64,000 nt of DNA, taken from assembly GCA_014879945.1 (NCBI GenBank), contig JACSRE010000242.1, positions 1 to 64,000 of the forward strand, in the 5' to 3' direction. Shown here piece by piece: positions 1-14,157 of this stretch (position 1 is the stretch's first letter; every line of letters starts with the position of its first letter). This DNA comes from Myxococcus sp. (GTDB lineage Bacteria > Myxococcota > Myxococcia > Myxococcales > Myxococcaceae). A program made the translations under genes and the position numbers. Under the pieces are notes generated by a model. It saw only the letters and a program-made list of their open reading frames with translations, searched no databases and had not been told where the DNA came from.

Positions 1-3000
1 GGCGGTGCCGGGGGTGGCGCGGTCTGCTTCAGGAGCGCCGCGAGATCGGGAATGGGGTTGACCGCGGTGACCGACTCTTCACCCAGGCCGTCGACGTCGA
101 CGTGCAACCGGGGCCGCGGCGCGGGCGCGGCGGCCCGGGCGCTCTCGAGGTCGCGGCGGGCCTGATCGAGCAGCTTGCGGGTCAGCTCGAGGTCCGTCTC
201 GACGCGCAGCAGCCGATCTCGCAGCTGGCCCTGCTCCCTCAGGCGCAGCTCGAGGGCCTCGACCGCCCCAGACAGCCGCTCGCGCTCCGCCTCCATCAGC
301 TCGTTCTCGGCGGTCAGCTCGATCACCTGCTCGCGCAGGTCGGGCGTGCCCGTCTTCGCCTGCTCGATGAGCTCGTTGGCGGCCGCGAGCTCGTGCTGCA
401 GATCGCCGTACTTCACGCGCAGGGCCAGGAGCAGCTCCTCGGCCTGCCGCCGGCCCACCACGGCCGCGTCGACGTCGTTCTTGGCGTTGAAGCGCGCGAT
501 CTCGAGCTCGGCCTCGAGCTCTGGCAGGCGCTGGCGCAGGGCGTCGATCTCGGCCTCGGACTGCGGGGCGGCGCGCGTCGCCTCGGCGAGCTGCCGCTCG
601 AGCACGTTCACCTTCAGGCGCAGCTCGGTGATCTCGGTGCCGAGGGCCGGCCGCTCGTCCTGGTAGAGCGAGAGCGACTCAGCGAGCTGCGCGGCGCGGG
701 TCTCGGCGTCGAGCACCTGCTGCTGGAGCGAGGTGGCGCGCGCCTCGGCTTCGCCCCGCGCCAGCTCGAGCTCCGAGAACCGGGCGCGCAGGGCCTCGAG
801 CTCGGCGCCGGTCTTCGCCGTCGCGTCGGCCCCGGCGTCGCGCTCGGCCTCGGCGCTGTTGGCGCGCTGGGTGAGCTCGACCACCGCCTGCTCGAGCGCC
901 GGCACCCGCTCCTTGAGGCCCGAGAGCTCGGGCTGGGTCGCGCGGAGCGCGTCGAGCTCGGCCTCGAGGTCGGGCACGCGCGAGCGGAGGCGCTCGACCT
1001 CTGCCTCGAGCTGGGCCCTGGCGTCGGCGATGGCGCGGCTCTCTCCGCCTGCCTGCGCGAGCGAGGTGCGCAGCTGATCGAGCTCCACGCGGGCGCGCTC
1101 GAGCTCGCCCTGGAGCGCCTGCTTCCCGGCCTGGTGCCCCCGCGCTTCGGAGTGCCCCTTCTCGGCCTCGGCGCGCGCCTGCTCGTGCGCCGCGCGGGCC
1201 GCCTCGAGCTGCGAGGCCGCCTCGGCGCGCTCCCGTGCGGCGGCGTCGCGTGCCTGCTCGATGGCCGCCTTCAGCTCGTCGCGCTGACGCTCGAGCTCGT
1301 TGAGCTTCGCCTCGCTGACCGCGTTGCGCTGCAGCAGCTCCTCTTCGCGCGCGTGCAGCGCCTTCGCCGCGTCGGCGCTGCGCTGCTCCAGGTTGACCTG
1401 GTACGCGGCCGCCTGCTGCTCGATGGCGCGGGCGTGATCGGCGCGGGCCGAGGCGAGCTGGGCCTCGAGCTCACCCTGGCGGGCCTCGAGCGCGCGGGTC
1501 GCGGCCTGGGTCGTCGCCTCCAGCTCACGGCGCTGGGTCTCGACGAGCGAGGTGCGCGCCTGCTCCCAGGCGGCCTCGCGGGCCTCGAGTGCCTGGCGGG
1601 CTGCCTCGAGGGCCGCGGACTCCTGGTGCAGGCGCGCTGCCAGCTCGGCGCGCGCCGCCGAGGCGGCCTCGAGCTCGGCGGTGCGGGCCTCGAGGGCCGC
1701 GGACTCCTGGCGCAAGCGCTCCGCCAGCCCGCTGCGGGCCGCCGTGGAGGCCTCGAGCTCCGCGGCACGGGCCTCGAGCGCCTGGGCGAGCGAGCGCCCC
1801 TCGGCCTCGGCAGCGTCGCGGAGGCGAAGCACCTCGTCGCGCGCGAGGGCGCTCTCTTCGAGCTCGGCCTTCAGGTGCTCGAGCTCTTCAGCTGCCGCCG
1901 CCGCCTTTCGCCTGGTGTCCTCGAGCTGCTGCTGGTGCGCCGACAGGCTCGCCTCGAGCGCCTCGCGCTCCGCGGTCTGGGTGGCGCCCTGGGCCGTGAG
2001 GCGCTCGACGGCGCGCTGGAGCTCCTGCGCCCGGGACGTGAGCTCGGCGCGCTGGGCCTTCTCGGCGTCGAGCGCGGCCGTCCGCTCGGTGAGCGCCCCA
2101 GTCAGCTCAGCCAGCTGCGCCTGCTGCTGGGTGGCCGAGCCGCTGAGGGCTTCGCGCTCGGCCTGGAGGCTGTCGCGCTCGGCCGTGAGCCGGTCACGCT
2201 GGGCGGCCAGCTCGTCACGCTCGACGGAGAGCTGGTCGCGGGCGGTGGTGAGCGCGTTCCGCTCTGCGGCGAGCTCGTCACGCTCACCAGCGAGGCGGTC
2301 CCGCTGAGCGGTCAGCTCGCCGTGTTGAGCCGACAGCCCATCGCGTTCAGCGGCGAGCCGGTCACGCTGGGCGGCCAGCTCGTCACGCTCGGCGGCGAGG
2401 CCCGTGAGGGACGCGGCGCGCTGCGCGAGCTCGTCGCGAGCGATCGAGAGCGCGCCCTGCACCTCGTTGAAGCTCGCGGTCCTCCGCTCGAGCGCGTCGG
2501 CTGCCCTGGCGAGCTCTTCGTTCGCGGCCTCGAGGGCCAGGCGCTGCGCCGTGGCGCTCTCGCGCGCCTGCTCGAGGGCAGACGAGAGCCGCGAGGCCTC
2601 GGCCTGCTGCTCCGAGAGCCGCCGCCCCCGTTCGTCGGCGAGCTCCCGGGCCTCGGCGTGCTCCCGCGTCAGCTGCGCCAGCTGCTGCTCGAGGGCGCCG
2701 CGCTCCGAGCTCGAGCGCTCCCCCAGCTCCCGCAGCTGCGCCGTCAGCTCAGAGACCCGCCCCTCGAGCTCAGCGGCCCGGCTGCCCGAGAGCTCGGCGG
2801 TCTGCCTGAGCGACGCGGCGCGGTGCTCCGCCTCTTTGCGCTCGGTCTCGACCGACTGCCGAAGGGCGCTGAGCTCCCGATCGAGCGCGTTGCGCTGCGA
2901 CTTGGCGGCAGCGAGCGCCTCGTCGGCTGCGAGGGTGACGCGCTGCAGGTTCTGCACCTGGTCGCTCAGGCCGGCAGCGCGGGTGACGCTCTCGTCGAGC

Positions 3001-5387
3001 CGCTGCTGGAGGGCCGCCTTCTCGGCGCGGGTGGCGTCGAGCGTCTTCGCGGTCTCTTCGAGGGCGTCGGTGGCCTGGGTGAGCGTGCCCTCGAGGCGGG
3101 CGATGCGCTCGCGCACGGCCATGGCGTCGGCGTGCTCGGCCTCGAGATCGCGCGTGCGGGCCTCGAGCGTGGCGCGGGTGTCGTCGAGGAGCGCCTGCCC
3201 GTCGCGCAGCAGGCCTCCCAGCCGCGAGACCTCGGCGTCGAGGCCCATCACCTGCTGCCGAAGCGCCTCGCTGGTGGCCCGCTCTGCCGCGAGCGCCGCG
3301 TCTCGGTCGGCGACGACGCCCTGGAGCGTTCGCTGCTGCTGCGCCGAGGCCTGCAGCAGGGCTTCGTGCGCGCGCCGAGCCTCGGCGACCTCGGCCTCGA
3401 GCCTCGACGCGGTCGCCGCCAGCCCCGACCGCTGGTCTTCGAGCTTTGCGACGCGCTGCTGTTCGGTCTGCCGGGCCTTGCGCAGATCGTCGACGGCGCC
3501 CCTGAGATCGTCGCGCTCCTCGATGAGGTGATCGCGGTCCTGCCCCAGCTCGGTGAGCTGGCGCCGCAGGTCGCTGCCCAGCACGTCGGCCTGCTCGCGC
3601 GAGGTGCGCTCGGCGGTGATGGCGGTCTCGAGATCGCGCTCGAGGCGCCGCGCCCGGGCCGTCTCGGCGTCCTTCTCGGCGCTGGCCTGGGCCACCTGGT
3701 CGCTCAGCTGCTGGACGTTGGCGTTCGTCTCGCTCAGCCGCTGCTCGTATTCCCCCGCGAGCTCGCGCCAGGTGCGCTCGGAGTTGGCGAGCGTCTCGAT
3801 GTCGCGCAGGGCGCGCGCGTGTGACGAGGTCGCCGCCTGGAGCTCGGTCTCGAGCCCGCTGAGCTCGGCCTGTTGACGGGCCAACGACTCGCCGAGGTGC
3901 TGCGCGCGAGACGTCTCGCGCTGGAGCGCCGCCTCGAGCTCGCGGCGCTGGGTCGCCTCGACCTCGAGCGAGCGGGCGATCGAGAGCCGATCGGCCTCGC
4001 GCGCCGAGGCCTCGTCGCGCATCGTCGCGACCTGGGTGCGGGCCTCGTTGAGCGATCGCTCGAGGCCCTCGATGGCGAGCAGTGACTGGGTGCGGGCATC
4101 GGCGAGCGCGAGCTCTCGGAGCCTCGCGGCCTCGAGATCGGCGCCCTGCGCGCTCAGCTCGTCTCGCACGCGGTCGGCCGACGCCAGCGCGCGCTCCCGC
4201 TCGAGGCGCTCGGTGACGACGTCTTCCTGGGCCTTCTTGAGCTCTTCGTACGCGCGCGCCAGCCGGGTTCGCGCGTCTTCGAGCTGGGTCGCGACCTCTT
4301 CGCGCCGGGCGCGCTCGAGGCGAATCTGCTCCTGCGCCGCCAGCGCGGTGATCGCCGCGTCCTTCTGGGCCCGCTGGAGCGAGTCGTGCTCGTTGCGCGC
4401 CGCGGTCGCCCTGCCCTCGGCGTCGATGGCCCGCTCGCGGAGCACCGTCAGCTCGGCCTCGAGCTTTCGCACGCGCTGGGCGAGGTCTTCACGATCGCGC
4501 AGCGTCTCGGGGCGATCACGCGTCGCCTCCAGCTGGGCGGTGAGGCGGGCGATGGCGTCTTTGCTGGCCTCGAGCTGGCCCGCGGTCTCGCGCAGCTCGA
4601 CCTGGCGCGTCTCGAGCTCGACGACCTTCTTCTGGAGCGCGTCCTTGAGCCGCTCGGAGCGATCTCGCCAGTCACGCGCGCGGGTCGAGTAGTCCTCGAG
4701 CTTGCCCCCGGTGAAGGCGAGCGGCTCGGGGGGCAGCTGGACCCAGGTGGGGTCGAAGCTGCGCGCGGGCTCCTGCCCCGCCACCACGACGAAGTAGGCC
4801 GCCTCGCTCGCGCCGGCCAGGGAGCCATCGACCTGCAGGCCCTCGCCGCGCTCGAAGGCGAGCTGGTAGCCGAGCACGGGCGACTGGGTGGCCACCTCGA
4901 CCGACTCGAAGTGCACCGAGAGCGCGTCGAGCAGCTGGCCGTAGGTGGGCGTGGGCGTGGGGTCTTCGGGCTCGACGACGCTCGAGAGCGCGAGCCCCGC
5001 CGGGTTGCGCAGCCCGCCCATCAGGTAGCCGCCCCTGGCGACGAGGCGCGCGAGATCTTTGAGCAGCTCGGGCGCGGCCACGTACGGCGCGAGGTCGGCC
5101 ACCATGACGAGATCGAAGCTCCCGGCCTCGAAGTCATCGAACACGGGCGGGCGGAAGCGCAGGTTCGGCCCGGCGAGCGTGGCCTGCGCGTCTTGAATGG
5201 CCTTCAGATCGTCATCGGCCGCGACCACCACCCGCGCGCCGCGCGTCGTCAAGAAGCGCGCCGACTGGCCGAGCGTCGAGGCGACCGCGCCGAGCTCGAG
5301 CACGCGGCGACGCGCGTAGAGGCTCTCCGCGAAGATGTAGCGCGGGAGCAGCTCGCTCGGCCCCAGCCGTTTGAAGGAGGTCGACAC
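1..5387 (-). CDS. Giant methyltransferase-like coiled-coil protein (3' end outside window)
   Basis: The visible part is at least 1795 codons and runs off the left edge, so the C-terminus is missing. I chose the GTG at 5387, which gives MSTSFKRLGPSELLPRYIF. Residues about 25-170 resemble a class I SAM-methyltransferase fold: ELGAVASTLG (31-40) stands where motif I lies, followed by AADDD (56-60) and FDLVMVADL (91-99). Motif I lacks the usual GxGxG, so activity is doubtful. From about residue 225 onward the protein is almost continuous coiled coil, rich in Glu, Arg, Ala, Leu and Gln, with internal repeats in multiples of seven residues. No signal peptide is seen, so it is probably a cytoplasmic scaffold, as with other very long myxobacterial coiled-coil proteins of motility or polarity. 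That role is inference; I do not recognise the exact gene. Confidence 0.85.
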   Translation of the reverse strand, partial: MSTSFKRLGPSELLPRYIFAESLYARRRVLELGAVASTLGQSARFLTTRGARVVVAADDDLKAIQDAQATLAGPNLRFRPPVFDDFEAGSFDLVMVADLAPYVAAPELLKDLARLVARGGYLMGGLRNPAGLALSSVVEPEDPTPTPTYGQLLDALSVHFESVEVATQSPVLGYQLAFERGEGLQVDGSLAGASEAAYFVVVAGQEPARSFDPTWVQLPPEPLAFTGGKLEDYSTRARDWRDRSERLKDALQKKVVELETRQVELRETAGQLEASKDAIARLTAQLEATRDRPETLRDREDLAQRVRKLEAELTVLRERAIDAEGRATAARNEHDSLQRAQKDAAITALAAQEQIRLERARREEVATQLEDARTRLARAYEELKKAQEDVVTERLERERALASADRVRDELSAQGADLEAARLRELALADARTQSLLAIEGLERSLNEARTQVATMRDEASAREADRLSIARSLEVEATQRRELEAALQRETSRAQHLGESLARQQAELSGLETELQAATSSHARALRDIETLANSERTWRELAGEYEQRLSETNANVQQLSDQVAQASAEKDAETARARRLERDLETAITAERTSREQADVLGSDLRRQLTELGQDRDHLIEERDDLRGAVDDLRKARQTEQQRVAKLEDQRSGLAATASRLEAEVAEARRAHEALLQASAQQQRTLQGVVADRDAALAAERATSEALRQQVMGLDAEVSRLGGLLRDGQALLDDTRATLEARTRDLEAEHADAMAVRERIARLEGTLTQATDALEETAKTLDATRAEKAALQQRLDESVTRAAGLSDQVQNLQRVTLAADEALAAAKSQRNALDRELSALRQSVETERKEAEHRAASLRQTAELSGSRAAELEGRVSELTAQLRELGERSSSERGALEQQLAQLTREHAEARELADERGRRLSEQQAEASRLSSALEQARESATAQRLALEAANEELARAADALERRTASFNEVQGALSIARDELAQRAASLTGLAAERDELAAQRDRLAAERDGLSAQHGELTAQRDRLAGERDELAAERNALTTARDQLSVERDELAAQRDRLTAERDSLQAEREALSGSATQQQAQLAELTGALTERTAALDAEKAQRAELTSRAQELQRAVERLTAQGATQTAEREALEASLSAHQQQLEDTRRKAAAAAEELEHLKAELEESALARDEVLRLRDAAEAEGRSLAQALEARAAELEASTAARSGLAERLRQESAALEARTAELEAASAARAELAARLHQESAALEAARQALEAREAAWEQARTSLVETQRRELEATTQAATRALEARQGELEAQLASARADHARAIEQQAAAYQVNLEQRSADAAKALHAREEELLQRNAVSEAKLNELERQRDELKAAIEQARDAAARERAEAASQLEAARAAHEQARAEAEKGHSEARGHQAGKQALQGELERARVELDQLRTSLAQAGGESRAIADARAQLEAEVERLRSRVPDLEAELDALRATQPELSGLKERVPALEQAVVELTQRANSAEAERDAGADATAKTGAELEALRARFSELELARGEAEARATSLQQQVLDAETRAAQLAESLSLYQDERPALGTEITELRLKVNVLERQLAEATRAAPQSEAEIDALRQRLPELEAELEIARFNAKNDVDAAVVGRRQAEELLLALRVKYGDLQHELAAANELIEQAKTGTPDLREQVIELTAENELMEAERERLSGAVEALELRLREQGQLRDRLLRVETDLELTRKLLDQARRDLESARAAAPAPRPRLHVDVDGLGEESVTAVNPIPDLAALLKQTAPPPAP
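1603..1710. repeat. 24-bp exact direct repeat, 84 bp apart, inside the coiled-coil gene
   Basis: The 24 bases at 1603-1626 recur at 1687-1710. The 84-base offset is 28 codons, or four heptads. The encoded unit reads QESAALEA in both copies. Confidence 0.8.
2187..2390. repeat. 36-bp exact direct repeat, 168 bp apart, inside the coiled-coil gene
   Basis: The 36 bases at 2187-2222 recur exactly at 2355-2390. The offset of 168 bases is 56 codons, or eight heptads, so the duplication keeps the coiled-coil register. The stretch between encodes many variations on an Ala-Gln/Glu-Arg-Asp-x-Leu heptad. Confidence 0.85.
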
Positions 5388-5442
5388 GTCGAGGGGCGAC
5401 TCTACCCTCGCCCGGGGGCGGCCAAAGGAAACCGACGGGCAA

Positions 5443-5470
5443 TTGCCGGTGTTTCACCCCGTACTAGCCT
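5443..5470 (+). promoter_or_regulatory. Candidate sigma-70-type promoter for the 5481 gene
   Basis: TTGCCG (5443-5448), a 16-base spacer and TAGCCT (5465-5470) lie just before the ATG at 5481. The predicted transcript start is within a few bases of the start codon, so the mRNA would have almost no leader. No Shine-Dalgarno sequence is seen. The match is moderate. Confidence 0.4.
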
Positions 5471-5480
5471 GTTGCACGCC

Positions 5481-6284
5481 ATGACCTCTGACCTCGGCAG
5501 CGCCCAACGCCCCTCCTTCTTCGTCCGCCTGGGGCGGGCCTTTCGCAACCTGCTGATCTTCGCCCTCGTGGTGGGGGCGGCGACGGGCGGCCTCTACGGC
5601 GCCTCGCTCCTCAACGCGCGCACGTGGGGCCTCGAGCTGGTGGGCGATCAGCTGGTGGTGACGAAGGGCAAGATGTTGCCGCTGGGCACGGAGCCGTTCG
5701 AGCCGGGCGACCCGCTGCTGTCGCAGGCCTACGCGCCGCTCGATCTCAACGGGAACACCGCGCTCGCGGTGATCGGCCAACGGTACCAGGACCGCGACGA
5801 GCTCGACCGCGCGCTGTTCTCGGTGATCGAGCTGCTGGCCAGGCCCCGCGTGGTGTCGGATCTCAAGAGCGATCTCGACGTAGGGGTGGCGCTGGTGAAG
5901 CGGGCCGAGGCCCTGCGGGGCATCTCGGAGCCGCAGCGGCTCACGCTGGGGCAGCTGCGCGGCGAGGTGGCCTACTTCCTCGCGCGCCAGCGCATCGACG
6001 ACGCGCGCAAGCAGCTCGACGAGGCGGTGCGGCAGCTCAAGCTGGCGGCCGACGCCGACGCGCGCCACAAGAAGGACGCGACGCAGATGCTGCTCGCCGT
6101 CGAGCCTCAGGTGCGGTCGCTCTCGGCGTCGCTGCGGGCCGCGATCGAGGGGCTCCCGGCGCCTGCCCCCATGGAGCTGGCGCCGCCCGTCGCGGTGCCG
6201 CCGCCGGCCGAGGTGAAGCCCGAGGTCGCGCCTGCCGCCGACGCGGGCGCGGCGCCGGCCGCGCCGGAGAGCGCCGGGCCCTGA
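5481..6284 (+). CDS. Membrane-anchored protein with helical repeat and Pro/Ala-rich tail
   Basis: 267 residues. One transmembrane segment (about residues 22-42, FRNLLIFALVVGAATGGLYG) follows a short cytoplasmic N-terminus, so the bulk probably faces the periplasm. The middle (about 90-215) is helical and resembles TPR-like or coiled-coil packing. The tail (about 220-267) is rich in Pro, Ala, Val and Glu. It is divergent from the coiled-coil gene with 93 bases between the starts. I recognise no family, so function is unknown; a link to the neighbouring scaffold is only suggested by position. The ATG at 5481 fits the promoter and the TM segment; an upstream in-frame extension would run through antisense of the coiled-coil gene. 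Confidence 0.75.
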   Translation: MTSDLGSAQRPSFFVRLGRAFRNLLIFALVVGAATGGLYGASLLNARTWGLELVGDQLVVTKGKMLPLGTEPFEPGDPLLSQAYAPLDLNGNTALAVIGQRYQDRDELDRALFSVIELLARPRVVSDLKSDLDVGVALVKRAEALRGISEPQRLTLGQLRGEVAYFLARQRIDDARKQLDEAVRQLKLAADADARHKKDATQMLLAVEPQVRSLSASLRAAIEGLPAPAPMELAPPVAVPPPAEVKPEVAPAADAGAAPAAPESAGP

Positions 6285-6285
6285 G

Positions 6286-8826
6286 TCACCCGTCCAGGTC
6301 GTCGTAGACGCCGTCCCACGAGTCGGGCGGCGGCGTCGCGAGGCAGGCCTCGCAGCGGGCGACGTAGCGATCGACGAGGGGATCTTCGCCCTCGGCGGCG
6401 AGCTCCTTGAACGAGGCGAGGGCCTCGGCGAAGCGCCGCTCCCGCCAGGCGGTCACCGCGGCCTCGTGGCGCGCGAGCCTGGGCGCGAGCTTCTCTGCGT
6501 CGGCGGCCCGGCCCATCAGCTCGAACACCTCGAGGGGCTCGGCGCGGCGGCCGACGCGGAGCCGATCGACGCTCCGGAAGACGAACTGCTCGTGTGCGTC
6601 ATCGACGATATGGCGGGTGACGAGCACGCGGGAGCCGTAGCGCTTGGCGATGGCCTCGAGCCTGAACGAGGTCGCGACCGGCTCGCCCATGACGGTGTAG
6701 TTGACGTGGTGCAGGGTGCCCATCTCGCCGACGACGGTGGGCCCGGTCTCGAGCCCGGCGCGCAGCACCAGCGAGCGCCCGCAGGTCTTCTCGAGGGCCG
6801 GGCGCGAGGCCTCGAAGCGCTCCTGCATCTCGAGCGCGGCCTCGCACGCGGCCTGGACCTGATCGTCGAGGTCGACCGGGGCGCCCCAGAAGGCCATCAG
6901 GCCGTCGCCGAGGTACTTGTCGACGTGGCCGCCCGAGTCGATCACGATGCCCGTCATCTCGTTCAGGTACGTCTGCAGCACCTTCACCACCTCGGCGGGG
7001 TCCTTCTCCTGCGCGACGGCGGTGAAGCCCTCGATGTCGCTGAAGTAGACGGTGAGCGCGCGGCGCTCGGGCCGCATCAACGAGAGGTCGCGCTCGACGC
7101 GCGCGAAGACGTCGGCCTTCACGGCGCCGCCGAGGGCGCGCACGACGAAGGCCCGCAGGCCGCGCTCGAGGGTGCGCACGTAGCCCTGGGTGGCCAGGAA
7201 GGTGAGGCCGCAGGCCAACAGGGGCGCGGCCATCGCCACCCAGCGCTGCTCCGCCACGAAGAGCTGCCGGGCGGCGAGGGCGTGCAGCGCCGCGACCGCC
7301 GCGATGGTGATGACCCACGCGAGCCACCCCGGGTTCCTGGTGAGCGTCGACCAGACCACCGCCAGCACCGCGCCGATGAAGGCGAAGGCCACCGTCAGCC
7401 AGAAGTCGGCCAGCGGCCTGGCGCGAACGATGGCGGTGGAGTGCAGCAGGCCCACCACCGCCTGGGCCATCACCTCCGCGTGGCCCAGCTCGCCGATCGG
7501 CGTCGCGAAGGTGGCCTTGCCCAGCGCGCGCTCGTCCGAGAGCACCACCACCCTGCCCGCCAGATCGTTGTCGAAGTGGCGCACGCCACGCGCCGACGAG
7601 TCGTCTTCTGCGTTCTGGAGCACCCGCCAGGCGGGCAAGGTGCGCTTGACGGTGCCGCCCGCGCGGCCGGGCTCCGACGCGTCCCACCGCAGCGCCACGA
7701 AGCCCTCGGGGTCCATGGGGACGTCGAAGCGGCCGCCGATCGACAGCTTCCCGTCGCGGTACTCCAGGGAGCGGGAGCCGACGAGGGCCATGGCGGCGAG
7801 CAGCGGCGCCGAGGCGAGGGTCTTCTGGGCGCCGTCGAGCTCGCCCGAGATCAGCAGCGGCACGGCGCGCACCTTCGCGTCGGGGTCTGGCAGCAGCGTG
7901 GCCGCGCCCGGCGGAGCGCCCCACAGCAGCAGCGGGGCGACCGGCGAGTCGACGCTGCGCGCGCGGACCAACCGCTTGACGTCCACGCCCGGCACGTCGA
8001 CCTCGGAGAGCCGCTGGGCCAGCCAGGCCTCGGTCACCTCGTGCTCGTCGTCAGAGGGCACGCGCGGCCGCAGCGACACCGTCTTCACGTTGAGCGCGGC
8101 GGCCAGCTCGCGCGCCCTGGCCTCGCTGGTGGCGCCAGCCCACAGCACCGGCTTGCCGCCCGAGATGAGGTAGGTGACCGGCGCCTTCCGGGTGAGCGCG
8201 TCGCGCACGACGCCAAAAGCCTCGCGCGTGGTCTCGAACTCGCCCAGGCGCAGCATCACCGGCGTCAGCGGCCGCTCGCCGGGCCGGGAGCGCTCACCCG
8301 AGAACGACCAGGTCAGCACCACCTTGCCGTCGTGGGGCTCGAGGTGGGCGGCCATGCGCTCGTCGTCGGAGCGCTGCTGCTCCCCCTTGCAGGGCGCGCA
8401 GGTGCGGGGCGAGACGTCGCGGAAGGACTGATCGACGAGCACCAGCGCGGCGCCCTCGTCGAGCAGCTGGGCGACGACGCGCCCGGTGAGCTCGCGCGGC
8501 CAGGGGCGCATGCCCCACTCGGGGTGCTCGGTCTCACGGGCGTTGGCGATGGTCTCGTCGTCGACGGTGACGATGACGACCTCGTCGCTGGGGGTCGAGG
8601 CGCCGCCGAGCTCCTTCGCGCGCCAGTCGTAGGTCACCCACTCGAGGCGCTCGAGCAGCAGCCGCAGCTGCACGTGCCAGCGGGCATCGCCGGTGAAGTC
8701 GCGCCGCTCGATGCGGAAGAAGGCCGCGGCGCCGAAGAGCAACCCGAAGATGGTGGCCCAGAAGAAGGCGACGCCGAACTTTCGCGTGAAGCGAAGGCCC
8801 GCGGAGTGAAGAGGGTTCGTAGACAC
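6286..8826 (-). CDS. CHASE2-domain class III adenylate/guanylate cyclase
   Basis: 846 residues, GTG start. Order: a transmembrane helix near residues 17-37, a large extracytoplasmic CHASE2 sensor (about 40-460), three hydrophobic helices (about 465-555), then a class III nucleotide cyclase domain (about 585-780) and a short helical tail. Both metal-binding aspartates are present: D597 in FSDIEGFT and D641 in GDGLMAF. The purine-selecting Lys (K637) and Thr (T711 in NYTVMGE) fit an adenylate cyclase. The Asn expected at T711+7, which stabilises the transition state, is Ala718, while Arg722 is kept. It should make cAMP, if active, in response to a periplasmic signal. The end lies next to the convergent 5481 gene. 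Confidence 0.93.
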   Translation of the reverse strand: MSTNPLHSAGLRFTRKFGVAFFWATIFGLLFGAAAFFRIERRDFTGDARWHVQLRLLLERLEWVTYDWRAKELGGASTPSDEVVIVTVDDETIANARETEHPEWGMRPWPRELTGRVVAQLLDEGAALVLVDQSFRDVSPRTCAPCKGEQQRSDDERMAAHLEPHDGKVVLTWSFSGERSRPGERPLTPVMLRLGEFETTREAFGVVRDALTRKAPVTYLISGGKPVLWAGATSEARARELAAALNVKTVSLRPRVPSDDEHEVTEAWLAQRLSEVDVPGVDVKRLVRARSVDSPVAPLLLWGAPPGAATLLPDPDAKVRAVPLLISGELDGAQKTLASAPLLAAMALVGSRSLEYRDGKLSIGGRFDVPMDPEGFVALRWDASEPGRAGGTVKRTLPAWRVLQNAEDDSSARGVRHFDNDLAGRVVVLSDERALGKATFATPIGELGHAEVMAQAVVGLLHSTAIVRARPLADFWLTVAFAFIGAVLAVVWSTLTRNPGWLAWVITIAAVAALHALAARQLFVAEQRWVAMAAPLLACGLTFLATQGYVRTLERGLRAFVVRALGGAVKADVFARVERDLSLMRPERRALTVYFSDIEGFTAVAQEKDPAEVVKVLQTYLNEMTGIVIDSGGHVDKYLGDGLMAFWGAPVDLDDQVQAACEAALEMQERFEASRPALEKTCGRSLVLRAGLETGPTVVGEMGTLHHVNYTVMGEPVATSFRLEAIAKRYGSRVLVTRHIVDDAHEQFVFRSVDRLRVGRRAEPLEVFELMGRAADAEKLAPRLARHEAAVTAWRERRFAEALASFKELAAEGEDPLVDRYVARCEACLATPPPDSWDGVYDDLDG

Positions 8827-10449: not shown

Positions 10450-12744
10450 TTGCCTCCCGCCCCAGTCAACGTCTTGATCGTCGACGACGACCGGTCGACC
10501 CAACGCTTTCTCGCAGACGCGCTGACGAAGAAGGGCTTCGTCGTCACCGTGGAGCGCGACGGCGAGTGGGCCGTGAAGACCTTCGAGAAGAAGTCCTTCG
10601 ACCTGGTGTTGCTCGACATTCTGCTCCCCGCCCTCAACGGCTACGAGGTGGCCAAGGCGATGCGCGCCACGGCCCGCGGCAAGCGCACGCCGATCGTGAT
10701 GATCTCGGGCGTGTACAAGAACGCGATCCACCAGCGCGAGGCGGTGCAGAAGCACGGCGCCTTCGCGTTCCTCGAGAAGCCGATCGAGCTCGAGAAGCTG
10801 ACCGGGATCTTGCGCGACGCGCTGGGCGCCAGGTTCCCCAAGCCCGCGGCGCCGAAGCCTCCGCCGCCGCCGGTGGAGGAGGACGACAAGACCGGCGAGT
10901 TCTACGCCGACGATCTGCAGCGCGAAGAGGCCGAGCACGTCGAGGTGCAGTCGAGCGTCGTGAAGTCGGCCAAGGCGACGGGCCCGGTGATCAAGGGAGA
11001 CTTCGCGCAGACGCCGTTCGCGCGCGTGCTGTCCGAGCTGTACCGCTGGCGGGCCACCGGGGCGCTGCTCGCCGGCCGGGCCAAGGTGAAGAAGATCATC
11101 TACCTGCGCGACGGCGTGCCCGAGCTGGTGAAGTCGAACCTGCTCGTCGAGGCGCTGGGCCGAATCCTCGTGCGCGAGCGCATGATCACCGAGGCCGAGT
11201 GCGAAGAGTCGCTCAAGCGCATGAAGGCCACCCGGCGCATGCAGGGCACGGTGCTGATCGAGATGGGCTGCATCAGCCCGCACAACCTCTCGTACGCGCT
11301 CACCCAGCAGATGCAGGAGAAGCTCTACGACGCCTTCCGGTGGGACGACGGCCTCTACCAGTTCAAGCCGGGCGTGGCGCAGCCGCCCGAGCCGGTGACG
11401 CTGGGCATGACCACGGCGCAGCTGATCGTCGAGGGCGTGCGTCGCACCTACGACGCCGCGCGCATCGCCCGCGTCTTCGGCGAGATCTCGAACCAGTACG
11501 TGCACCCCAGCGACGAGCCGCTCTACGCGCTGCAAGACGCCGGGCTGTCTGACGAAGAGAAGGAGATCGCCCTGGTGGCCGACGGGCACAAGACGGTCGC
11601 GACGCTGCGGGCCCTCAACGTGCTCTCGCCGGTCGACACCGACAAGCTGCTCTTCGCGCTGGTGTGCTCGCAGATGGTGTCGCTCAAGCCGACGCCGGCC
11701 GCGGGCAAGCCGAAGGTGTCGATCGCGAAGATCGCCGCCGAGCTGCACCAGGCCGACGCGCCGCCGCCGATGCCCATTCCGAAGCCGAGCGAGCCTCCGC
11801 CGCTGCCGCCGCCGCTCCCTCCGCCGCTGCCCCAGCGCGCCGCTCCACCGCCGCCCAGGGGCGAGCTGCTCGACCTGCCGTGGGATCACGCCGAGCTCGC
11901 GCGGCCGGCCGCGGCCGTGGCGGTCCCTCCTCCGCCGCCGCCCGACACCACGCCGCCGGCCAAGCCGCGCAAGAGCAAGAAAGACGACGCGCCCGCGCCG
12001 CGCTCCGGGTCGCTGTTGCCAGAGCTGTCTGAGGTGACGAACATGCCGCGCCTGTCTGGCGACGAGCGCGATCAGCGTGAGCGCCTGGCGGCCAAGGTGG
12101 CGGCCATGCGCCGGCTCGACTTCTTCGAGGTGCTGGGCGTCAAGCGCAACGCCACGCGCGAAGACATCAAGCGCGCCTACTTCGCGCTGGCCAAGGAGTA
12201 CCACCCCGACAAGCACGCGATGTCGAAGTCGGCCGAGATTCGGGAGCTCGCCCAGCAGCTCTACGATCTGATCTCTTCGGCGCACGACACCCTGACCGAC
12301 CCGGCCGAGAAGGAGCGCTACCTCGCCGAGCTCAAGCAGGGCGTCAAACGCGACATGGGCGAAGACGTCGGCAAGATCCTCGCGGCCGAGGGCAAGTTCC
12401 AGCGCGGCGAGGAGTTCATGCGGCAGCGCCAGTACGCCGAGGCGGTGGAGGCCTTCAAAGAGGCGGTGGTGCTCTACCCGGAAGAGGGCGAGTTCTTCGC
12501 GTGGCTGGGGTGGGCGCGCTTCCAGGCGAACCCGGCCGAGGCCGACGAGGCGCTGGCCGACATCGAGAAGTCCATCAACCTGAACCCGCGGCTCGACAAG
12601 AGCTACCTGTTCCTCGGCTACATCCACAAGGCGACGGGCCGGCCCGACAAGGCCGAGAAGCAGTTCGAGAAGGCGATTCAGGCCAACCCCGACTGCACCG
12701 AGGCGCTGCGCGAGCTGCGGTTGTTGGGCAAGACGAAGCGGTAG
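10450..12744 (+). CDS. Response regulator - PATAN (DUF4388) - DnaJ - TPR fusion protein
   Basis: 764 residues, with TTG start at 10450, where the first strand of the receiver domain begins shortly after. The receiver domain covers residues 7-125 with acidic pocket VDDD (11-14), phospho-acceptor Asp56 in LVLLDILLP and Lys110. A PATAN/DUF4388-type region (about 180-345) follows, then a Pro-rich linker (about 430-530). The J-domain (about 557-620) keeps the HPD triad at 585-587, which is needed to stimulate Hsp70 ATPase. TPR-like repeats fill about 655-760. It therefore looks like a phosphorylation-controlled J-protein that recruits DnaK to a client held by PATAN or TPR modules. Only 3 bases separate it from the patatin gene, so they are co-expressed. 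Confidence 0.93.
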   Translation: MPPAPVNVLIVDDDRSTQRFLADALTKKGFVVTVERDGEWAVKTFEKKSFDLVLLDILLPALNGYEVAKAMRATARGKRTPIVMISGVYKNAIHQREAVQKHGAFAFLEKPIELEKLTGILRDALGARFPKPAAPKPPPPPVEEDDKTGEFYADDLQREEAEHVEVQSSVVKSAKATGPVIKGDFAQTPFARVLSELYRWRATGALLAGRAKVKKIIYLRDGVPELVKSNLLVEALGRILVRERMITEAECEESLKRMKATRRMQGTVLIEMGCISPHNLSYALTQQMQEKLYDAFRWDDGLYQFKPGVAQPPEPVTLGMTTAQLIVEGVRRTYDAARIARVFGEISNQYVHPSDEPLYALQDAGLSDEEKEIALVADGHKTVATLRALNVLSPVDTDKLLFALVCSQMVSLKPTPAAGKPKVSIAKIAAELHQADAPPPMPIPKPSEPPPLPPPLPPPLPQRAAPPPPRGELLDLPWDHAELARPAAAVAVPPPPPPDTTPPAKPRKSKKDDAPAPRSGSLLPELSEVTNMPRLSGDERDQRERLAAKVAAMRRLDFFEVLGVKRNATREDIKRAYFALAKEYHPDKHAMSKSAEIRELAQQLYDLISSAHDTLTDPAEKERYLAELKQGVKRDMGEDVGKILAAEGKFQRGEEFMRQRQYAEAVEAFKEAVVLYPEEGEFFAWLGWARFQANPAEADEALADIEKSINLNPRLDKSYLFLGYIHKATGRPDKAEKQFEKAIQANPDCTEALRELRLLGKTKR

Positions 12745-12747
12745 GCG

Positions 12748-14157
12748 ATGCGCGTTCGGGAGCGGTTCGAGATCATCCGCCCGATCGAGGAGCTGGAGTC
12801 GGCGCTGGTGCGCGCGGCGCTGGAAGACCCCGAGCTGGTGACGGCGCACGAAGAGGCGGTGCTTCGAACGGCGCTCTCGCTGGCCCGCCTGTACAAGGTG
12901 CGCCAGGGCACGCGTGACGTCGGCGTCGGCGTCGCGCTCAAGCCGTTTCGTGACGAGCTGACGCGGCGGTTGACGCCGGTGCTGCACCCCGCGAGCGGCG
13001 CCGTCAGCCGCGCGATGTTGATGCCGCACCTGCGCGAGCTGAAGGAGCGCACCCTCAACACCCGCGACAGCCTGTTGGCCCGCTTCCAGAACCGGCTCTC
13101 GTTCGAGGCCGTCGATCACGAGCTCCGCCACAAGTCGCTGGTGCTGGTGCTGGGGGGCGGCGGCGGAACGGCCTACGTGTACCTGGGGGTGATGGCCTTG
13201 CTCGACGAGTACGGGCTGTCGCCGAAGCTGCTGTCAGGCACGTCGATGGGCGCGATCCTGGGGTTGTTCCGCTCGCGCATGCGCCGGTTCGAGCAAGACG
13301 AGGTCGTCAACATCGTGCGCACGCTGTCGTGGCGGCGGCTGTTTCGGGTGGTATCGGCCGAGAACCGCTACGGCGTACCGGCCGCGCTGCGCCTCTTCCT
13401 GCGCTCGGGCATCGGGCGGTGGTTCGGCGTCGACACCAGCGGAGGCGAGGCGCTGAGCCTCAAGCAGCTCCCCATCAAGACGCTGATCACCGTCAGCGGC
13501 ATTCGCACCGGCAAGCTGCCCCACCCGCTGGAGTTCTACGAGAAGCTGACGGCGGCGGCGCCCGGGCAGCTGCTCAACCCCCTCGTCCTCCCGAAGTGGA
13601 TCGCGGCGCTCTGGGAGTTCGCCACGCACCCCGAGATCCTCACCCGGGTGACGTTGGGGGCCGACGAGGGCACCGAGACCTTCGACGCGGTCGACGCGGC
13701 GGGCTTCTCGAGCGCGCTGCCGGGCATCATCCACTACGACGTCCTGCGCGACGACCCGCGCATGCAGGGCATGCTGCGCGAGCTGCTGGGGAGCCGCCGC
13801 ATCTTCCGCCTGGTGGACGGCGGGCTGGTGGACAACGTGCCGTCGAAGGCGGCCTGGCGCGCCGTGCACCAGGGAGACATCGGCACCCGCAACACCTTCA
13901 TCCTCGCGCTCAACGGCTTCGCCACCAAGCTCTCGACGCCCTTGTGGATTCCGCTGCAGCGCATCGCCGAGCTCAACGTGGCGCGGTCGCGGCCGTGGGC
14001 GCACCTGACGCACGACTTCAAGCGGAGCCTGCCCGCGCTGTCGGTGGTGCCGCGGGTCGACGAGCTGCTCGACGCGATTGCGTGGGGCCGCCAGCAGATC
14101 GCCCCTCAACTGCCCTTCATCACGCGCATGCTCACGCCCCTGCCCCGCCTGGGGTGA
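12748..14157 (+). CDS. Patatin-like phospholipase
   Basis: 469 residues. The patatin fold covers about residues 130-390. The oxyanion glycines are GGGGGTAYVYLG (about 136-147), where the usual GGGxRG is altered. The nucleophile is Ser166 in GTSMG and the catalytic dyad Asp is D357 in DGG. The ~125-residue N-terminal helical region is not part of the standard domain. No signal peptide is seen, so it acts in the cytoplasm or on the inner face of the membrane. The expected reaction is hydrolysis of an acyl ester of phospholipid. It is the second gene of an operon with the response regulator-DnaJ protein and probably its client or effector (inference from position). Confidence 0.9.
   Translation: MRVRERFEIIRPIEELESALVRAALEDPELVTAHEEAVLRTALSLARLYKVRQGTRDVGVGVALKPFRDELTRRLTPVLHPASGAVSRAMLMPHLRELKERTLNTRDSLLARFQNRLSFEAVDHELRHKSLVLVLGGGGGTAYVYLGVMALLDEYGLSPKLLSGTSMGAILGLFRSRMRRFEQDEVVNIVRTLSWRRLFRVVSAENRYGVPAALRLFLRSGIGRWFGVDTSGGEALSLKQLPIKTLITVSGIRTGKLPHPLEFYEKLTAAAPGQLLNPLVLPKWIAALWEFATHPEILTRVTLGADEGTETFDAVDAAGFSSALPGIIHYDVLRDDPRMQGMLRELLGSRRIFRLVDGGLVDNVPSKAAWRAVHQGDIGTRNTFILALNGFATKLSTPLWIPLQRIAELNVARSRPWAHLTHDFKRSLPALSVVPRVDELLDAIAWGRQQIAPQLPFITRMLTPLPRLG

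Follow-up and report, generated by a model that had tools for sequence, protein, structure and literature searches.

The window, i.e. the whole stretch of 64,000 nt analysed here, begins inside a minus-strand open reading frame that runs from a GTG start at 5387 to position 3 and encodes 1795 aa without a stop up to the window end. Base 1 of the window is base 1 of contig C206, hence the C-terminus of this gene (the rod gene) is absent from the contig. In four closed same-genus relatives the protein has 1817-1847 aa, with an extra Pro-rich tail and a short acidic end. Its layout is a class I methyltransferase fold of ∼230 residues, a rod of ∼1,480 residues and a Pro-rich tail. The C-termini of relatives are Pro-rich with acidic or charged tails, and the hydropathy maximum sits in the head (the C-terminus is truncated in the window). 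The features of the locus, including a divergent neighbour that we call gene X, are as follows.

5481-6284, plus strand: gene X, encoding a short N-terminal segment, one hydrophobic stretch, a conserved domain of ∼180 residues and a Pro-rich end
5388-5480: intergenic gap of 93 bases that separates gene X from the rod gene, the two being divergent
4680-5387, minus strand: head, residues 1 to ∼236, by Pfam Methyltransf_11, AlphaFold2 model, PDB match and conservation
5250-5303, minus strand: motif I loop, residues 29-46, VLELGAVASTLGQSARFL, at the site of GxGxG in active class I enzymes
228-4667, minus strand: rod, residues ∼241-1720, helical and heptad-patterned, its first third gap-free in relatives and its middle expandable
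2152-2399, minus strand: one-heptad repeat units of 21 bases in an array that includes a 90% identical copy of 59 bases at offset 168 (repeat analysis)
1603-1782, minus strand: 84-base tandem duplication (28 residues, four heptads), ∼85% identical (repeat analysis)
3-227, minus strand: start of the Pro-rich tail, truncated by the contig end; same-genus relatives run on to the acidic end EVFELDV...LLDEE

No second complete copy of the rod gene was found in the genome, and the sole other protein match covers ∼42 residues on contig C109. On that contig a 99-base piece upstream of a FolD-like frame (13570-13668 of locus L011) is a 97% identical partial copy of window positions 1902-2000, which looks like a stray or misassembled piece. 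Antisense to the rod, a frame of 1273 aa is open on the plus strand (3-3824), a common outcome in GC-rich repetitive coding DNA, and nothing indicates that it is a real gene. Twelve close relatives came from metagenome bins of myxobacteria whose labels were Myxococcaceae, Archangiaceae, Archangium or Myxococcales.

The observation of the rod gene in the initial annotation is real and more general than the window alone reveals, and it is partly reinterpreted below: in myxobacteria, a methyltransferase that is conserved and apparently inactivated is joined to a helical rod of great length, and the rod lengthens and shortens quickly from species to species through duplications in the DNA that preserve its heptad pattern. 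The head was matched in 140 of 195 genomes of the phylum (E up to 1e-5), where the weakest matches may be other methyltransferases. Within the window's family it was present in 93 of 96 genomes (G072, G112 and G142 are without it), and 91 of these 93 have one copy. Diverged second head-plus-coil genes (L111, L112), which retain the replaced loop described below, were seen in genomes G103 and G111.

A methyltransferase-like head had been proposed for this protein, and the proposal held. Pfam Methyltransf_11 matches the head at 26.7 bits (cut-off 21.2), and of 52 aligned heads 48 are matched by methyltransferase profiles of Pfam. An AlphaFold2 model from the alignment of these 52 heads, which leaves out near-identical heads and a different methyltransferase (L127), reached a mean pLDDT of 83.9 and superseded a model from 13 close relatives only (pLDDT 49.6). 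Its top PDB structure match was 3l8d, a Bacillus methyltransferase (Z 16.4, rmsd 3.5, 178 residues aligned), and the 50 matches listed in this comparison are methyltransferase-fold entries by title, WbdD not being among them. According to this model, the head is a class I methyltransferase fold. When the head profile was searched against PDB sequences, most matches were designed WD-repeat chains at residues ∼110-170 (e.g. 2ymu, E 8.7e-08), which were taken as chance, no stretch passing alone; a single methyltransferase was matched, at E 0.018.

The rod is composed of 21% Ala, 15% Glu, 13.5% Leu, 13% Arg and 0.5% Pro. Heptad signal of the residues LIVMF (period 3.5 or 7) was detected in 25 of 34 segments of 84 residues, compared with 1 of 34 for control periods. 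The relatives L063 (34/40 vs 1), L013 (30/34 vs 1), L115 (16/23 vs 1) and L106 (8/13, control 0) behaved similarly, and the signal failed in the shortest rods (L097, 1/8 segments, control 1/8). Under a stricter periodicity test, in which Ala was counted and only periods of 3.45-3.70 were accepted, 11 of 34 segments passed, none of them starting at 955-1501, and a single unbroken 3.5 register over the whole rod was not found. A helical rod is well supported by these patterns. A long coiled coil is predicted to follow the head, as in proteins of the FrzS/AglZ type, its middle being weaker under the stricter test, and a standard coil in the middle part is putative. From the initial annotation of a coiled-coil rod of >1500 residues we thus keep the helix and the heptad signal, while the length becomes ∼1,480 residues and the coil of the middle part becomes a prediction.

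The same annotation had reported DNA repeats at offsets of 84 and 168 bases, and these are indeed the strongest in rod DNA. Exact 14-mers are repeated there in 62 pairs, all in frame, and 37 of the pairs lie at multiples of 21 bases, including 24 at 168 (eight 21-base units) and 11 at 84; codon shuffles of rod DNA gave on average 8.1 pairs, with 1.1 at multiples of 21. Weaker repeats occur at 450, 1473, 408 and 204, offsets that are not multiples of 21. Among 56 scanned loci we counted 210 tandem arrays. Of these, 207 are in frame, and 108, spread over 50 of the 56 loci, have a period divisible by 21 bases. The strongest array among relatives belongs to L067 (189 bases × 4.7, 78% match) and occupies rod bases 2080-2963 after the head.

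Rod length was compared between species, with one genome per species in the collection. Closed proteins of the family (n = 53, omitting end-open loci and L024-L053 and including loci like L113) range from 714 to 2316 aa with a median of 1837. By genus, the lengths are 714-757 aa (g24), 1343-1558 (g7), 1523-1607 (g3), 1661-1873 (g8), 1817-1847 (g1), 1905-2251 (g20) and 2085-2316 (g6). Identical rod length in diverse strains had been named as an observation against the original proposal, and the lengths differ widely instead. As a control, SMC genes in 96 genomes gave 88 full-length matches within 3540-3576 bases. The length of coiled coils varies on average 3.6 times less than that of other regions, as stated in the available text of PMC5082667, and on that statement the length range of the rod is unusual. 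In the numbering of L063, gaps in the profile of 52 relatives amount to 0-4% at 241-540 and to 41-59% in most of 721-1200. Near 1621-1800 gaps form a second zone, and positions 1561-1620 are a conserved island. No clear link between rod length and genome size was found (Spearman 0.14, p 0.35, 47 loci; genus means 0.54, p 0.06).

Length changes were determined as net differences between unique shared 9-mers in 16 disjoint sister pairs; changes whose anchors were separated by >60 residues were dropped from the count, as were pairs that had too few anchors. In this set 39 of 77 rod changes between sister species are multiples of 7 residues (expected 11; p 5e-14); 14 leave a remainder of 4, 11 leave 1, 8 leave 3, and 5 leave 2, 5 or 6. 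Coils tolerate remainders of 4, 3 and 1 as stutters and skips, and 72 of 77 changes fall in the register-compatible classes 0, 1, 3 or 4 modulo 7. The claim that length changes preserve the heptad register is borne out by these counts. In the Pro-rich tail, which served as internal control, 1 of 11 changes is a multiple of 7. Overlapping pairs gave 104 of 207, but these are not independent, and disjoint pairs were therefore preferred. Repeats may cause some of the in-register changes via slippage, so that selection and mutation bias are confounded in the register rule.

For 13 sister pairs with at least 3 changes, the mean net change was 71 residues, compared with 82 for random signs (mean P 0.52), and across these pairs there was no sign of compensating insertions and deletions that hold total length. 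Since nothing holds total length constant between sisters, we read the rod as length-tolerant: as judged from sequence comparison, rod length drifts under a register rule. The term 'length-tunable' used at first is dropped, the signs of changes within the 13 pairs being random and no adjustment of total length being seen.

These data bear directly on the possibility that length variation is neutral slippage of repetitive GC-rich DNA in 21-base units, with selection purging only breaks of frame or register and no particular length being needed. The random signs within pairs and the rod length without clear tie to genome size speak for it, as does the higher dN/dS of the rod, which exceeds that of the head in 12 of 12 pairs (head 0-0.185, rod 0.168-0.376; two of the pairs share a member). 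Some genera, however, are narrow (three g7 proteins of 1343-1354 aa, five g3 proteins of 1523-1607 aa), which may reflect recent descent or constraint, and slippage accounts for length only, not for the conserved head, the conserved third of the rod or gene X. We give this explanation an even chance; it is compatible with a scaffold role of the protein.

The motif GxGxG is general in class I methyltransferases. As the initial annotation had noted for the window, it is lacking in the head: it is absent in 77 of 77 family loci, VLELGAVASTLGQSARFL of the window included, and is replaced by a conserved loop (the 77 loci omit L012-L023, which may repeat other genomes of the collection). At the first glycine position, 33, 46 of the 77 loci have D and 31 have G; V occupies position 35 in 76 loci, and every locus has S, T or A at position 37. 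T38, G40, S42, A43, F45, L46, D58, F91, D92 and D98 do not vary in any of the 77 loci, and Q168, G173, D187, L190, A197, V216, L218 and P219 are nearly invariant across the 52 heads, including those of one distant family, f11. D58 is a retained acid at the end of strand 2, where the acid of class I methyltransferases usually contacts the cofactor ribose. Heads of f11 have VLEIGCGDGSGA-type loops, with strict GxGxG in 3 of 6 and DGxG in the other 3, and in the alignment the motif I loop of the family is 3 residues longer than theirs. The f11 heads form one side of a branch with support 100/96, in a tree read without a root; because GxGxG is general among class I enzymes, it would be the older state. 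The invariant loop residues, D58 and low head dN/dS together look like a re-tooled pocket or surface rather than decay. Hence 'degenerate', the word first applied to this pocket, is too weak for a replacement loop and a D58 invariant in 77 of 77 loci, with head dN/dS lower in 12 of 12 pairs.

Because D58 is retained, the cofactor pocket may still be in use, which counts against reading the head as a pseudoenzyme. The protein might then be an active, atypical SAM-dependent methyltransferase whose changed loop binds SAM and whose rod is a spacer that places the enzyme at its target. The precedent is WbdD of Escherichia coli O9a, described in the available text of PMC5082667 as an N-terminal methyltransferase on a coiled coil of changeable length. 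The intact fold, the profile matches in 48 of 52 heads, the invariant D58 and the near-canonical motif I of f11 relatives on similarly designed rods agree with an active enzyme; in the family, by contrast, all three glycine positions of motif I are changed or unfixed. As far as that text describes it, WbdD is moreover an active enzyme that has a kinase domain, interacts with the membrane through its C-terminus and sets chain length by the length of its coil. In the rod protein, whose C-terminus is truncated in the window, we saw none of these features. No kinase domain between methyltransferase and coil was matched by Pfam at E up to 1 in the 1795 aa present, and no glycan genes were seen beside the rod gene. 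A ruler would also require a fixed length, yet the length drifts. We therefore consider an active enzyme unlikely.

That the rod protein is an SMC/Rad50-like chromosome protein is highly improbable and was rejected, since its match to SMC_prok_B (112.9 bits) is far below the cut-off of 567.35 and comes from coil regions of the rod, the ABC ATPase head is missing, and each genome has its own SMC. In the available text of PMC5344682, length changes in the arms of bacterial SMC likewise obey periodic rules, and the arm, carried on an ATPase head, functions only in specific length regimes. The rod protein differs in that its total length spans a threefold range among closed proteins of one family.

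Gene X has no Pfam match. Near its N-terminus is the hydrophobic stretch, with basic residues ahead of it, and on this hydropathy X is probably a single-pass membrane protein. Between 5200 and 5700 no sigma-70-type promoter was matched, and there was one terminator-like match. In 74 of the 75 family loci for which 700 bases or more of upstream DNA were available (the exception is L039), X and the rod gene are head-to-head neighbours, and the spacing is 63-146 bases in 67 of the 74, by the envelope of the X profile match. In 4 of 6 genomes of family f3 (G031, G032, G040, G041), X shares the strand of the rod gene and lies just upstream of it. Matches to the X profile in G053 and in G054 were weak and away from the rod gene, and G155 had none. 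That adjacency survives this change of orientation speaks for a working link between X and the rod protein. In f11, X is on a different contig from the rod gene in 5 of 5 genomes searched, thus the pair is not universal.

Neighbours beyond X vary, being a CHASE2 cyclase in the window and other genes in L021, L023 and L063. The window's protein beside X (6286-8826, minus strand) has a CHASE2 sensor and an adenylate/guanylate cyclase domain; further on, at 10450-12744 on the plus strand, a receiver domain, DUF4388, a DnaJ domain and TPR repeats are combined in one protein (Pfam). Since MglB (PF03259) and PilQ (TIGR02515) are both present in 16 of 16 genomes tested, they are uninformative about a link between the rod protein and motility.

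By analogy, the nearest design is FrzS. In the available text of PMC11580455 and PMC1974792, the pseudo-receiver head of FrzS binds SgmX and its coiled coil is sufficient for polar localization. Like FrzS and AglZ of Myxococcus xanthus, as far as these sources describe them, the rod protein has an N-terminal fold minus catalytic residues, then a long coil and then a tail, and its hosts belong to the same order of bacteria. Unlike them, it has a methyltransferase fold as head: among Pfam matches with E up to 1 there was no receiver domain, and methyltransferase profiles were found in its place. The coil of FrzS is given as 258 residues in the accessible text, compared with ∼1,480 in the rod protein. 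Because the head is not a receiver, we do not place the rod protein in the FrzS/AglZ group. Among the papers returned by searches of open-licence PMC literature, no title or abstract opening described a methyltransferase-headed coiled-coil protein of myxobacteria, and these papers gave no function for the protein; as a sign of absence this is weak.

We propose that the rod protein is a candidate cytoplasmic scaffold or tether with a pseudoenzyme head, a role for which we see the chances as evenly balanced. In this proposal the head would serve to bind a protein or nucleotide-like ligand rather than act as a methyltransferase. The rod would self-associate as a coil and separate the head from the C-terminal tail by tens to hundreds of nanometres (fully extended, 1,480 residues at 0.15 nm each would reach ∼220 nm), and X may anchor the system to the inner membrane. 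As the comparison of relatives shows, the middle of the rod gains and loses whole heptads or register-compatible pieces (4, 11, 15, 18 or 22 residues) by tandem duplication and loss. Register would be kept by selection and total length would not, so that the rod may be a spacer of loose length rather than a ruler. A more far-reaching version supposes that motif I was rebuilt as a new conserved loop (EhxAVAxTxGxSAxFL) for another ligand or partner, that the rod protein and X form a two-part tether from envelope to cytoplasm, and that the rod is a length-evolvable spacer by which species reset its reach in whole coil-register steps without damage, the reset mattering to the cell; this version we hold to be quite doubtful.

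Most likely, judging from the sequences compared, the product of the locus is a candidate scaffold with a conserved pseudo-methyltransferase head, its length drifts within the bounds of the register, and gene X is a new putative partner. The protein is kept in nearly every member of the family, genomes of 2-3 Mb included, and its rod documents a clean register rule for coil evolution. Moreover, dozens of species share head and partner gene but have rods of ∼470 to 1,970 residues, which amounts to a natural experiment, and rod swaps could directly test whether coil length matters. If the proposal is true, the rod protein would be a third pseudoenzyme-plus-coil design in myxobacteria, beside FrzS and AglZ.
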